The translations under genes and the position numbers were made by a program. The notes beneath the pieces were generated by a model. That model made no database searches. It saw only the letters and a program-made list of their open reading frames with translations, and was not told the origin of the DNA. This document shows, piece by piece, positions 33,873 to 39,900 of a stretch of DNA of 60,781 bases. Every line of letters starts with the position of its first letter. The stretch's first letter is position 1. The stretch spans positions 1 to 60,781 of the forward strand of contig CAJWDL010000006.1 of assembly GCA_913030805.1 (NCBI GenBank), read 5' to 3'. The stretch comes from an uncultured Candidatus Pelagibacter sp. Lineage in GTDB: Bacteria; Pseudomonadota; Alphaproteobacteria; Pelagibacterales; Pelagibacteraceae.

Positions 33873-34549
33873 TAAACTTTACCAAAATTTCTTTTAATTT
33901 TTTTAAATTTATTTAAAATTTTTTGAAAATCATTATTATTAAAATCAGGCCACATTTTTTTTATAAAAAAAATTTCTGCATAAGCTATTTGCCACAACAA
34001 AAAATTACTGAGTCTTTTTTGACCACCAGTTCTTATTAAAATATCGGTGTCAGGAAAACCAGAGGTAAAAAGATTTTTTTCAATATTTTTGAGTGTAATT
34101 TTTTGTTTTTTTTTATTAACTATTTTCATACTATTAATTATTTCTTGTTTTGACCCATAATTTAAAGCTAATTGAACTGAAATTTTATTATTTTTCCTAG
34201 TTTTGTTTTCCGCAATTTTTATTGTTTTCCTTAAATGGCTTGGCAAGCTAAACTTATTTCCAATGATTTTCACCTTAATCCCATTTCTAATAACCTTAAG
34301 TATATTTTTTCTGAAATAGTTTTCTAATAACTTAAATAAGAAATTAACTTCTTTTTTTGGTCTTTTCCAATTTTCGCTTGAAAAGGTAAATAATGTTAAA
34401 TAAGAAATTTTTTTTTTAATTGAATAATCAACAATTTTTTCTATTGCCTTGAGTCCACATTGATGACCATAATTTCTTGATTTTCCTCTTTGTAATGCCC
34501 ATCTACCATTGCCATCCATAATTATGGCAACATGATTAGGTAAACTCAT
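33872..34549 (-). CDS. uppS: Undecaprenyl diphosphate synthase
   Basis: A 225-residue cis-prenyltransferase making the C55 lipid carrier for cell-wall and LPS synthesis. It starts MSLPNHVAIIMDGNGRWALQRGKSRNYGHQ with the catalytic Asp in MDGNGRW, and has LTLFTFSSENWKRPKKEV, ALNYGSKQEI and DILIRTGGQKRLSNFLLWQIAYAEIFF. Slightly short but complete. It overlaps frr by 4 bases and cdsA by 1. Confidence 0.96.
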   Translation of the reverse strand: MSLPNHVAIIMDGNGRWALQRGKSRNYGHQCGLKAIEKIVDYSIKKKISYLTLFTFSSENWKRPKKEVNFLFKLLENYFRKNILKVIRNGIKVKIIGNKFSLPSHLRKTIKIAENKTRKNNKISVQLALNYGSKQEIINSMKIVNKKKQKITLKNIEKNLFTSGFPDTDILIRTGGQKRLSNFLLWQIAYAEIFFIKKMWPDFNNNDFQKILNKFKKIKRNFGKV

Positions 34550-35097
34550 ACTGTCATTATCTCTTTTTCTTTTTGGGATTCTTTTTTATCAATTTTTTTT
34601 ATTTCTTCATCTGTAATCTTCTGAATTTCTTTTTCGAATTTATTATTTTCATCTTCGCTAATCTTCTTTTCCTTAAGCATTGCTTTTAATACATCATTAG
34701 CTTCCCTTCTTATATTTCTAACTGATATTTTACTTTGCTCTGCAATATTTTTAACTATTTTTTTTAATTCATTTCTCCTCTCTTCGTTTAAATTCGGAAT
34801 CGGAATTCTAATCAACCGACCATCAATTTGCGGATTTAAACCCATTTCTGATTTTTTTATTGAAGAGTCAATAAGCATCAAATTATTTTGATCCCATACT
34901 TGAATGTTTAATGTTCGAGGATCTGATGCAGTAATTGTACCTAATTGATTTATTGGTATTTTTTGCCCATAAACATCTACTTTGATAACATCCAACATAC
35001 TAGCATTCGCTCTACCTGTTCTTAGAACTGATAAATCCTTTTCATAAACTTCGAAAGTTTTATTCATTTTTTGTTTATAAATGTTTTTATCAAACAT
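34546..35097 (-). CDS. frr: Ribosome recycling factor
   Basis: A 183-residue protein that, with EF-G, splits terminated ribosomes. Motifs include LRTGRANASMLDVIKVDVYG, ITASDPRTLNIQVWD, NPQIDGRLIRIPIPNLNEERR and a charged C-terminal helix. The start at the ATG at 35097 (MFDKNIYKQKM) best fits family length; an ATG at 35112 would add five residues. In most bacteria pyrH lies between tsf and frr; here frr follows tsf after about 34 bases and pyrH is absent. Confidence 0.95.
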   Translation of the reverse strand: MFDKNIYKQKMNKTFEVYEKDLSVLRTGRANASMLDVIKVDVYGQKIPINQLGTITASDPRTLNIQVWDQNNLMLIDSSIKKSEMGLNPQIDGRLIRIPIPNLNEERRNELKKIVKNIAEQSKISVRNIRREANDVLKAMLKEKKISEDENNKFEKEIQKITDEEIKKIDKKESQKEKEIMTV

Positions 35098-35131
35098 AAT
35101 AAAAATATGCATTTTAAAGGGTAAACCTTAT

Positions 35132-35995
35132 TTATTCACCAACTTTATATCTAACAAAATCTTTAATGGCTATACTGTTTTCTTTACCTAATTCAGATAT
35201 AACGTCTTTTACTTTTTTTTTCGGATCCATAATCCAAATTTGATTAATTAAAGCATTTTCCTGTTTAAATTTTTCTAACTTTCCCGTTGAAATTTTTTCT
35301 ATAATATTGTCACTTTTGCCTGAATTTTTAAGTTCTTCACTAATTATCTCATTTTCTTTTTCCAACATTTTTTTATCAAGTTGATTAATTTCAATTGCCA
35401 GAGGATTTGATGCCGCTATATGCATTGCCAATTTGTGTCCAAAATCTTCAATCTGTTGATTAAATTTTGTAGATTCAATAGAGACAACCACGCCAAGTTT
35501 TCCAATATTTTTTTTTATTGCCGCGTGCACATAAGGAAAATTCATACATTTATTATTATCAAAAAAATTGCACCTTCTAATTGTAATTTTTTCACCAATT
35601 TTAGAAATAAGATTAATTACATTGTCTTCAACAGTATTTCCATCTTTCATTTTCTTTTTTTTTAAATTATTTAAATCTCCCTTTACTTCAAAACACAATT
35701 TAGAAAGATTTTCTGAAAAGTTTAAAAATTCTAAATTTTTTGCAGCAAAATCTGTTTCACAATTAATCTCGATTATTGACAATTTATTATTTTCCTCATG
35801 AACGCAAATTAGGCCATCATTTGCAATGCGTTCCATTTTTTTACCAGCCTTAGCAAATCCCCTAATTCGCAAATATTTTATTGATTCTTCTATATCGCCA
35901 CCACATTCTTTGATTGCAATATTGCAATCTCCATAACCTACGCCGGTAAGTTCCCTAAGTTTTTTAATCTTATTTAAATGACTGGGAGACGACAT
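35132..35995 (-). CDS. tsf: Elongation factor Ts
   Basis: A 287-residue guanine-nucleotide exchange factor for EF-Tu. The N-terminal UBA-like domain has KIKKLRELTGVGYGDCNIAI, followed by the TDFxAKN motif as INCETDFAAKN and, further on, MHIAASNPLAI. The length is normal. It lies 8 bases after rpsB, the universal bacterial order, so both may respond to control exerted at the rpsB leader. Confidence 0.96.
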   Translation of the reverse strand: MSSPSHLNKIKKLRELTGVGYGDCNIAIKECGGDIEESIKYLRIRGFAKAGKKMERIANDGLICVHEENNKLSIIEINCETDFAAKNLEFLNFSENLSKLCFEVKGDLNNLKKKKMKDGNTVEDNVINLISKIGEKITIRRCNFFDNNKCMNFPYVHAAIKKNIGKLGVVVSIESTKFNQQIEDFGHKLAMHIAASNPLAIEINQLDKKMLEKENEIISEELKNSGKSDNIIEKISTGKLEKFKQENALINQIWIMDPKKKVKDVISELGKENSIAIKDFVRYKVGE

Positions 35996-36003
35996 TAAAA
36001 AAA

Positions 36004-36837
36004 TTATTTTTTTATTGGATTGTTTTCTTTTGATATCGTGCTTATAACTTTTTCTTTAATCTTATCAATCAATCGTACTTTATCTTCTTTTTCTTCAACT
36101 TTAATTTCTTTAACTGGAGGCTTGATTTCATTATTTTTATTAGAAATTTTAATTTCTTTTTGTACATTTTGAATAGTTTCTTTTAATAAATCACAGTATA
36201 GATTTATTGATCTTCGTGCATCATCATTTCCAGGTATTGGATAATCAATACCCGCAGGATCAGAATTTGTATCAAGTATTGCAATTATAGGTATATTTAG
36301 CTTGGCAGCCTCCTTGATAGCTAACTTTTCATGATTTGTATCAATAATAAATATTAAATCTGGAATACCTTTCATTTCTAATATTCCCCCAAGTGATCTC
36401 TCGAGTTTGTCTCTTTGAAGTCCCATCTTGATAATTTCTTTTTTTGTAAAACCTGTATTCTCTCCTCCAAGTGCTACGTTAATTTGTTTTAGCTTTTTTA
36501 TTGAATTTGAGATTGTTTTCCAATTAGTTAACATTCCCCCCAGCCATCTAAAATTTACATAATATTGAGATGTATCTTTGGCCAAATTCGCAATTGACTC
36601 TGCTGCTTGCTTTTTAGTAGAAACAAATAATATTTTACCACCACTCTCAATAACGCTCGAAACTTTTGAAAGAGCTTCGTTAATTAACTCAATAGTTTGG
36701 ACTAAATCAATTATGTGAATTGAGTTTCTTTTACCAAAAATATAATTTTTCATTTTTGGATTCCATCTAAAAGTTTTGTGACCTAGATGCACGCCCGCTT
36801 CTAATAATTGTTGAATTGTTAAATTAGGTATATTCAA
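36004..36837 (-). CDS. rpsB: Small ribosomal subunit protein S2, probable UUG start
   Basis: A 277-residue S2 protein. Taking the TTG at 36837 as start gives [15 protein letters not shown], which lines up residue for residue with the common alphaproteobacterial start M-A-L-P-D-F-S-M-R-Q-L-L-E-A-G. GGGA lies at 36848-36845, seven bases before the TTG. The ATG at 36873 is in frame but would add a Trp-rich, non-conserved dodecamer ([12 protein letters not shown]) and falls within a predicted RNA structure. Core motifs are [45 protein letters not shown]. The C-terminus carries an extra charged tail of about 40 residues. Confidence 0.93.
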
Positions 36838-36916
36838 TATATTTTCCCGGTTATTCCACCACAGTTCTACCATTTAAGGACCGGCGGTCCAAAGGACCAA
36901 CAACCGTGTGCGTTTT
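36838..36916 (-). ncRNA. Structured cis-regulatory leader of rpsB-tsf with alternative hairpins
   Basis: On the minus strand this GC-rich island stands out in an AT-rich genome. CGGUUGUU (36906-36899) can pair with AAUAACCG (36855-36848) over 8 pairs (one G-U). Inside, GGACC (36890-36886) can pair either with the upstream GGUCC (36898-36894, loop UUU) or with the downstream GGUCC (36882-36878, loop GCC), so the two hairpins exclude each other. CCGCC (36887-36883) can also pair with GGUGG (36860-36856). The outer stem ends at the ribosome-binding GGGA before the UUG start. This looks like autoregulation by S2; structured rpsB leaders are known in other bacteria. Confidence 0.65.
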
Positions 36917-36957: not shown

Positions 36958-39900
36958 TTATATGTTTATTCTTTTCAAATAAGGCTCGTTTTTTAACGAT
37001 TTTAATATTTCTGGATTTATTTTTCTTTTATTAGAAAGTTCAAAAATAAGATTTTTTGAATTATTTTTAATAATAATTTTAACATTTGTATTACCTTCTT
37101 TAGAAATTAAATTTGAAAAATTTCTAAGATTCTCTAAATTTTCAATTTCAAATGTAATATTAGGTATGGATTGTTCAGAAATTTCATTTAAACTTGCTAA
37201 CTTTCTTACACTTATCCTCTTAAATCGATTATTTTGATTACTCAAATCTTTTAAAACTGTAATTAAAAATGACTTACCTTCTTTAAGAATATTTCTACTT
37301 TTTTCCAAAATTTCTGAAAAAAGAAATAGTTCAAATACACCCCCCAAATCACTAAATTTAACAATTACAAAAGGATTGCCATCTCTAGTTTTCTTTTCTT
37401 GAATTTTCATTATCGTTGCAGCAAGGATAGCTTCATTTTTGGATGAGATCATAAATGAATTAAAGTTTTGTATTTTGTAAATATCAAAAACTTCTTTGTA
37501 TTCATTAATCGGATGATCCGAAATAAAGAATCCAATTGCTTCAAATTCTTTAGATAATCTCTCTTCAAACAGCCAGTCTTTTTTAATATTATTTTTATTC
37601 AAACTTTTTTGGGTCTGATTACTTTCATTAAATAAATTTATTTGGTTATTAATTTTATTTTCAAATACAGATTTTGAAGCTAGTATAATATTAGGAATAT
37701 TATCGTAAAATTCTTTTCTGTTATTTTCTAATGAGTCAAATGCTCCCGCTTTTACCAATCCTTCAAGTTGTAGTTTATTAATATTCTTTGGATCGACTCT
37801 ATTAATAAAATTATCTAATGATTTAAACTGACCGTTAATTTCTCTTTCTTTAACAATTTGATTAATTGCTTCAAATCCAACACTTTTAATTGCCCCTAAT
37901 GCGTAATAAAATTTTTTGTCTGTAGATTTAAATTCTGCAAAGCAACTATTTATGCATGGACGTTGAATTTTAATATTAAGCCTTTTTAATTCCTCATAGT
38001 ATTCACTTAATTTAGCTTGGTTACCTAATTCTGTTGACATTGATGCGGCAAAAAATTCCTTGGGATGATAGGTTTTTAAAAAGGCTGTTTGATAAGCAAT
38101 GACTGCGTAAGCAGCGGCATGACTTTTATTAAAACCATATTCGGCGAAAGGTTCTATTTTTTGGAAAATATAATCTGCTACATTCTTTTGAATTCCGTTC
38201 TTTAAAGCTCCTTCAATAAATCTTTGTTTTTGTTTTTCTAATTCTGCTCGTTTTTTTTTCCCCATTGCTCTTCTTAAAATATCAGCTTCTCCTGCGGTAA
38301 AACCTGATAAAATTTGGGCTATTTGCATTACCTGTTCTTGATAAATAATAACTCCATAAGTGGGTTCCAGAATTTCTTTTAACTTTGGATGAAGATAATC
38401 AGGTTCTTTTTTTTTGTGTTTGCAATCATTATAGATAGATATATTGCTCATAGGACCTGGTCTATATAAAGCTACCAAAGCAATAATATCCTCCAATCTA
38501 TTAGGTTTCATTTGCATTAAAGCTTCTCTCATTCCTGAACTTTCAAGTTGAAACAAACCAACTGTATGACCAGACGATAGTAATTCGAAAACTTTTTTAT
38601 CCTCAAAATTAATTGTGTTTATATCTAGGTCTATATTTTTCGCTTTTAAAAGAGTCCGAGTTTTACTTATAATCGTTAAGGTATTTAATCCAAGTAAGTC
38701 AAATTTTATTAATCCAGCATTTTCTGCTGAATACATATCAAATTGTGTTGCTGGCAATAATAAATCAGAGGAAAAATCTTTATAAAGAGGAACTGTCTCA
38801 GATAAATTTTTCTCTGCAATAACAACGCCAGCTGCATGGGTTGCAATGTTTCTATTTAGTCCCTCAAGTTTTAAAGATAAATCCATTAATTTTCTTACTC
38901 GGGAGTCCTTAGAAATCATATTTTGAATTCTTGGTTCACGATTTATACATTCTTGTAAACCTAGTGGCCTAGATGGATCAAAAGGAATCATTTTACTAAT
39001 AGAGTCAACAAATCCATAAGAAAGACCAAGAACTCTTCCAATATCCCTAATGGCCATTCTTGCTTTTAATTTTCCAAAAGTAATTATATGAGCAACGCCA
39101 TTTCCATATTTTTTTTTAAGATAAGAAAATACCAAATCTCTTTTTTCTTCACAAAAATCGATATCAAAATCTGGCATTGAAATTCTATCTGGATTTAAAA
39201 ATCGTTCAAAAATTAAATTAAATTTTATCGGGTCAATATCAGTAATAGATAAACTCCAAGCAATAAGTGAGCCGGCTCCAGATCCTCTACCTGGTCCAAC
39301 TGGTATATTGTTATTTTTAGCCCATTTAATGTAATCGGAAACAATCAAAAAATAACCTGAGTAACGCATTTCTTTTATAATGTTAAATTCATGTAGAAGT
39401 CGCTTGTTATAAATATTTAAATTTTTTTTATTTTCTTGATCAGAATTCTGTTTAAAGACGTATTTATTAAATTTTTCTTTCATACCTTTTGTTGCTAAAT
39501 TTATTAACTCTTGATCTACATCTATATCTTTGCTGGTCCTTATATTTGGGAGGATAGGTAAAGAAGGTTTGGGTTTATAACTACATTTATAAGGAAAATT
39601 AAAATTATTTTCCAGTGCTTCAGGCAAATCAGAAAAAATTTCAATCATTTGTTCTGAGCTCTTCAAATAATGTTGATCAGAATATTTTCTTCTTTTTTTT
39701 TCATTTACATAGGTTTTTTCTCCTATACAGATCAATGCATCATGGGCTTCGTGCATATCCTTATCTAAATAAAAAACCTCGTGAGTAGCGATTAAGGGAA
39801 TTGCTAAATCATTAGATTTGTTTAATAGAAATTCTTCAAATAATTTTTCCCCAACATCGTTGTGCCTTTGAATTTCTAAATAAAATTTGTCCTTAAATAC

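Follow-up and report, generated by a model that had tools for sequence, protein, structure and literature searches.

A divergent rpsB motif RNA whose conserved pseudoknot lies close to the start codon in the rpsB-tsf leader of a Pelagibacter genome

In Escherichia coli, ribosomal protein S2 represses rpsB-tsf through the rpsB leader with the help of S1. The Shine-Dalgarno sequence and the start codon lie outside the S2 operator in this organism, and a review from 2024 calls the mechanism unclear (PMC10931766). A structured RNA, the rpsB motif (Rfam family RF01815), was described from the gap between dnaE and rpsB in 'Ca. Pelagibacter ubique' (Meyer et al. 2009, PMC2704228). As described there, a short P2 and P3 sit on a stem P1, and a pseudoknot joins the P2-P3 junction to a 3' extension (PMC2704228). 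Here, we analyzed the same gap in a contig of 60,781 nucleotides from an uncultured Candidatus Pelagibacter sp. (CAJWDL010000006.1, assembly GCA_913030805.1), the whole of which is referred to below as the window. Very probably, this stretch serves the rpsB-tsf mRNA as its 5' leader and represents a divergent rpsB motif, in which a fold held by S2 would block the 30S subunit.

The leader is located on the minus strand between dnaE, which ends at position 36958, and rpsB (36837-36004; TIGR01011, 308.9 bits at a cut-off of 76.3), with both gene names confirmed by NCBIfam models. The first-pass annotation of this DNA, made from its sequence, had pointed to a GC-rich island in AT-rich surroundings, and the island at 36838-36916 does have a G+C content of 46.8%, compared to 28.7% in the whole window; it corresponds to a structured rpsB leader at 36,912-36,836. 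The same annotation had proposed a UUG start codon, and the position of this codon (36837-36835) is supported by the two congeners with rpsB (L002 and L003), which share the UUG. Every genome of the genus found to carry rpsB, three in total, thus has this codon, whereas AUG takes its place in the remaining leaders that were read from the order. The true start of rpsB is thus probably the UUG at 36837, a weak start codon for a ribosomal protein gene. An in-frame AUG within the leader (36873-36871, in P3) is not conserved as a start codon; it makes automatic open reading frame calls extend RpsB to 289 amino acids. Upstream of the leader, a promoter-like site is predicted at 36951-36923, consisting of TTGTAA (36951-36946), a spacer of 17 nt and TAAAAC (36928-36923). 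It was missed by a stricter promoter scan; the best -35/-10 pairs upstream of 33 leaders, on the other hand, show a mean of 8.3 out of 12 matches, as opposed to 6.7 (sd 0.5) in shuffled sequences. A transcript from this site would start a few nucleotides 5' of P1. A scan of the leader for a terminator or attenuator found none. Further along the window, the region between tsf and frr (34546-35995) is devoid of pyrH, encoding UMP kinase. None of the nine Pelagibacteraceae genomes tested for it (G000-G008), one of them 99% complete on a single contig, contained a TIGR02075 match above the cut-off, while four genomes of a sister family (G037-G040) each scored more than 308 bits and carry pyrH 1-2 kb from rpsB. 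There is only one ADK-family protein per genome.

A scan of the window at the Rfam cut-offs did not report the leader. In a permissive scan, by contrast, RF01815 matched it from end to end (36912-36833) with 28.5 bits and an E-value of 4e-4 for one genome, a score below the family cut-off of 40 bits, which explains the silence of the standard scan. The t44 family (RF00127) gave 18.8 bits (E 0.12), below its cut-off of 44 bits, so the leader is not filed as t44, and all other Rfam families produced chance-level matches only. When RF01815 was run against the genomes of 61 relatives, 27 of them matched at E-values up to 1, with 26 of these at 0.011 or better, yet not a single one of the 61 reached 40 bits; a Caulobacter control also remained under this value. 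The cut-off therefore overlooks this lineage as a whole and is no guide to membership. The leader is a divergent member of a class that has already been described, the rpsB motif, which answers the call of the first-pass annotation for a comparison with known leader families. This result settles the stretch as a described regulatory RNA, with its fold corrected. It also means that standard annotation misses the leader in the very lineage from which the motif was originally reported, because all 61 genomes tested from this order fall short of the cut-off.

According to the RF01815 alignment, P1 is formed by the 5' strand CGC-A-CACGGUU (36912-36902) and the 3' strand AACUGUGGUG (36866-36857), giving ten pairs with A36909 bulged. 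P2 is a hairpin, GGUCC-UUU-GGACC (36898-36894 paired with 36890-36886), and P3 consists of two pairs between CC (36879-36878) and GG (36871-36870); some relatives, L016 and L018 among them, have covarying forms of 4-5 bp. The pseudoknot connects CCGGU in the P2-P3 junction (36884-36880) with ACCGG just 3' of P1 (36851-36847), ending 9 nt before the start codon. Both the alignment and the covariation thus reveal a long P1 that ends in a junction from which a variable P2 and P3 emerge.

In an alignment of 33 distinct Pelagibacteraceae leaders, 90.4% of the cells of P1, P2, P3 and the pseudoknot were paired, compared to 82.8% in shuffled sequences and 30-49% in versions of the structure that were slid along the alignment. 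Eleven pairs of this structure had changed on both sides (6.8 in shuffles), with a total of 61 two-sided changes at the level of individual cells (18.5 in shuffles). P1, P2 and P3 covary far beyond these controls, with two-sided changes at six of the ten P1 pairs and four of the five P2 pairs. When anchored on its own landmarks, P1 was paired in 312 of 327 cells. The same type of count for the pseudoknot showed all five pairs in each of the 33 leaders, with all 165 cells paired; counts taken from the MAFFT alignment (A1) are lower, since it misplaces the pseudoknot strand in five rows with a one-base insertion. The folding energy of the single leader sequence was no better than that of shuffles (z = -0.02). 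Within the 33 aligned leaders, the sequence of the pseudoknot is unchanging, so that it shows no covariation of its own at this level. CCGGU/ACCGG is present in nearly all alphaproteobacterial leaders read; one relative (L161) has an ACCGA strand, which shortens the pseudoknot. The Gammaproteobacteria, by comparison, use GGGGU/ACCCC (E. coli and others), CGGGU/ACCCG or UGGGU/ACCCA, with one imperfect end pair in several leaders. These two-sided changes between the two classes support the pseudoknot, in agreement with the published description (PMC2704228).

The first-pass annotation had instead proposed a switch, in which an outer stem of eight pairs (36906-36899 with 36855-36848) encloses three blocks, GGUCC/GGACC/GGUCC, the middle one pairing with either neighbor, and S2 binding selects between the folds. 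All of these elements can be found in the window: the stem exists, with seven Watson-Crick pairs and one G-U pair, and so do the three blocks, of which the first two correspond to P2 and the third overlaps with the 5' strand of the pseudoknot. Moreover, the best fold containing the outer stem (-18.5 kcal/mol) comes close to the best one containing P1 (-19.5 kcal/mol), although the pseudoknot is not counted in these values. However, the stem is complete in only one of the 33 leaders, that of the window itself, and is interrupted even in the two congeners, which retain six and seven of its eight pairs. Its pairing across the 33 leaders (53.6% of cells) does not differ from that in shuffles (54.0%), its covariation does not exceed the shuffle level either, while that of P1, P2 and P3 does, and the alternative pairing of GGACC with the second GGUCC lacks any pair changed on both sides. 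A stem of at least eight pairs also arises in 560 of 1000 dinucleotide shuffles (56%) of the same 79 nt. In addition, the outer stem shares bases 36906-36902 and 36851-36848 with P1 and the pseudoknot and therefore excludes both. As a conserved device, the three-block switch is refuted by the tests of conservation, covariation and chance occurrence, leaving it a very slim chance of being the regulatory fold. What does hold is the broader idea of a structured rpsB leader that reaches the ribosome-binding region and would serve in autoregulation by S2, with S2 binding extrapolated from E. coli; the fold suggested for it has to be replaced.

To follow the rpsB motif fold through the order, we built a covariance model from the aligned Pelagibacteraceae leaders. 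It assigned 79.1 bits to the window and, across 197 genomes from this order, matched 166. A search for rpsB in 22 of the genomes with a weak match or none showed that the gene is missing from each of these assemblies, whereas two lower-scoring genomes (G045 and G039) possess rpsB and a recognizable leader. The model also detected the rpsB leaders of other Alphaproteobacteria, with E-values down to 4e-7. The element is positioned directly upstream of rpsB, in line with the placement of the rpsB motif immediately before rpsB or tsf.

The distance between the end of the pseudoknot and the start codon is short throughout the order: 51 Pelagibacteraceae leaders have a spacing of 4-12 nt with a median of 8, and 16 leaders of a sister family one of 7-10 nt with a median of 9. 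It reaches 24 nt in E. coli and a median of 15 nt in 46 other Alphaproteobacteria, for which the choice of the most upstream in-frame start codon would, if anything, have shortened it. A separate Shine-Dalgarno core 3' of the pseudoknot was found in two of the 51 Pelagibacteraceae leaders and none of the 16 from the sister family, as opposed to 39 of the 46 other alphaproteobacterial leaders. In each of the 16 sister-family leaders, a GGAG core makes use of the last two G residues that belong to the pseudoknot strand. A loss of the separate Shine-Dalgarno sequence that is specific to this operator was considered as well; this notion is weakened by the fact that just nine of the 52 long open reading frames in the window have such a core, so that its absence is not special to rpsB. 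The tight packing of the fold against the start codon in the SAR11 order is only a mild surprise.

The short distance in the order suggests a direct blocking of ribosome entry. With its conserved and covarying structure linked to rpsB at this distance from the start codon, the leader RNA would fold into P1, with its single bulged A, carrying the short P2 and the two-pair P3, and the CCGGU of the P2-P3 junction would pair with the ACCGG just 3' of P1. Once free S2 exceeds the free 30S subunits, S2, which is helped by S1 in E. coli, would bind and hold this fold. The held fold would then exclude the 30S subunit, because only 9 nt separate the end of its pseudoknot from the UUG, thereby shutting down the translation of rpsB and, through coupling, also that of tsf. 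For SAR11, the binding of S2 and the resulting repression are inferred by homology, and a pseudoknot placed at the start codon makes direct exclusion of the 30S subunit the simplest putative mechanism. The chances appear evenly balanced that the S2 operator of the SAR11 order has merged with the ribosome-binding site, with the pseudoknot strand in the Shine-Dalgarno position, so that S2 excludes the 30S subunit directly, unlike in E. coli. It is also conceivable, if rather doubtful, that the motif acts from a distance, with an operator clear of the ribosome-binding site, as suggested by the E. coli operator, which includes neither the Shine-Dalgarno sequence nor the start codon (PMC10931766). 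The short spacing would then reflect genome streamlining, consistent with the small and compact genomes of this order. However, in the SAR11 order no more than about 14 nt lie between the start codon and the far end of the pseudoknot's 3' strand, a position inside the footprint of any initiating 30S subunit, and the core shared with the pseudoknot strand in all sister-family leaders likewise argues against action at a distance.

The bases of the bulge, the junction and the linker are highly conserved across the leaders, beyond what a mere clamp would need. This conservation bears on the idea that the structure mainly protects the rpsB-tsf mRNA or promotes its translation, acting as a 5' clamp or in 30S docking, with no response to S2 in SAR11. 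P1 would indeed begin within a few nucleotides of the predicted transcript start, and no experiment addressing the binding of S2 came to light for any SAR11 bacterium, but the same structure class answers to S2 in E. coli (PMC10931766), making such a role improbable. In its compact form, the SAR11 leader may offer the simplest setting for testing how S2 represses its own mRNA.

Among the known systems, the pseudoknot operators of rpsO, which encodes S15, resemble the leader in that they belong to a ribosomal protein gene and have a pseudoknot close to its start codon (PMC10931766), although protein and fold are different and the relationship is one of analogy only. The t44 or E. coli rpsB leader (RF00127), which is repressed by S2 in E. 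coli (PMC10931766), shares with it a CACAC...GUGG stem and an AACC pseudoknot strand before rpsB, but has a longer P3, a GGGGU/ACCCC pseudoknot in E. coli whose end is 24 nt away from the start codon, and a separate Shine-Dalgarno sequence. Closest is the rpsB motif itself (RF01815, PMC2704228). Its representative in 'Ca. P. ubique' has a P2 of three pairs, compared to five in the window, with an equally short P3 (PMC2704228), and the window further differs by a G-U in place of an A-U pair in P1, by UUG instead of AUG as the start codon and by its score of 28.5 bits, under the 40-bit cut-off. Both have in common the location between dnaE and rpsB, a P1 with a bulged A, a short P2, a two-pair P3 and the pseudoknot that joins the P2-P3 junction to the 3' extension.
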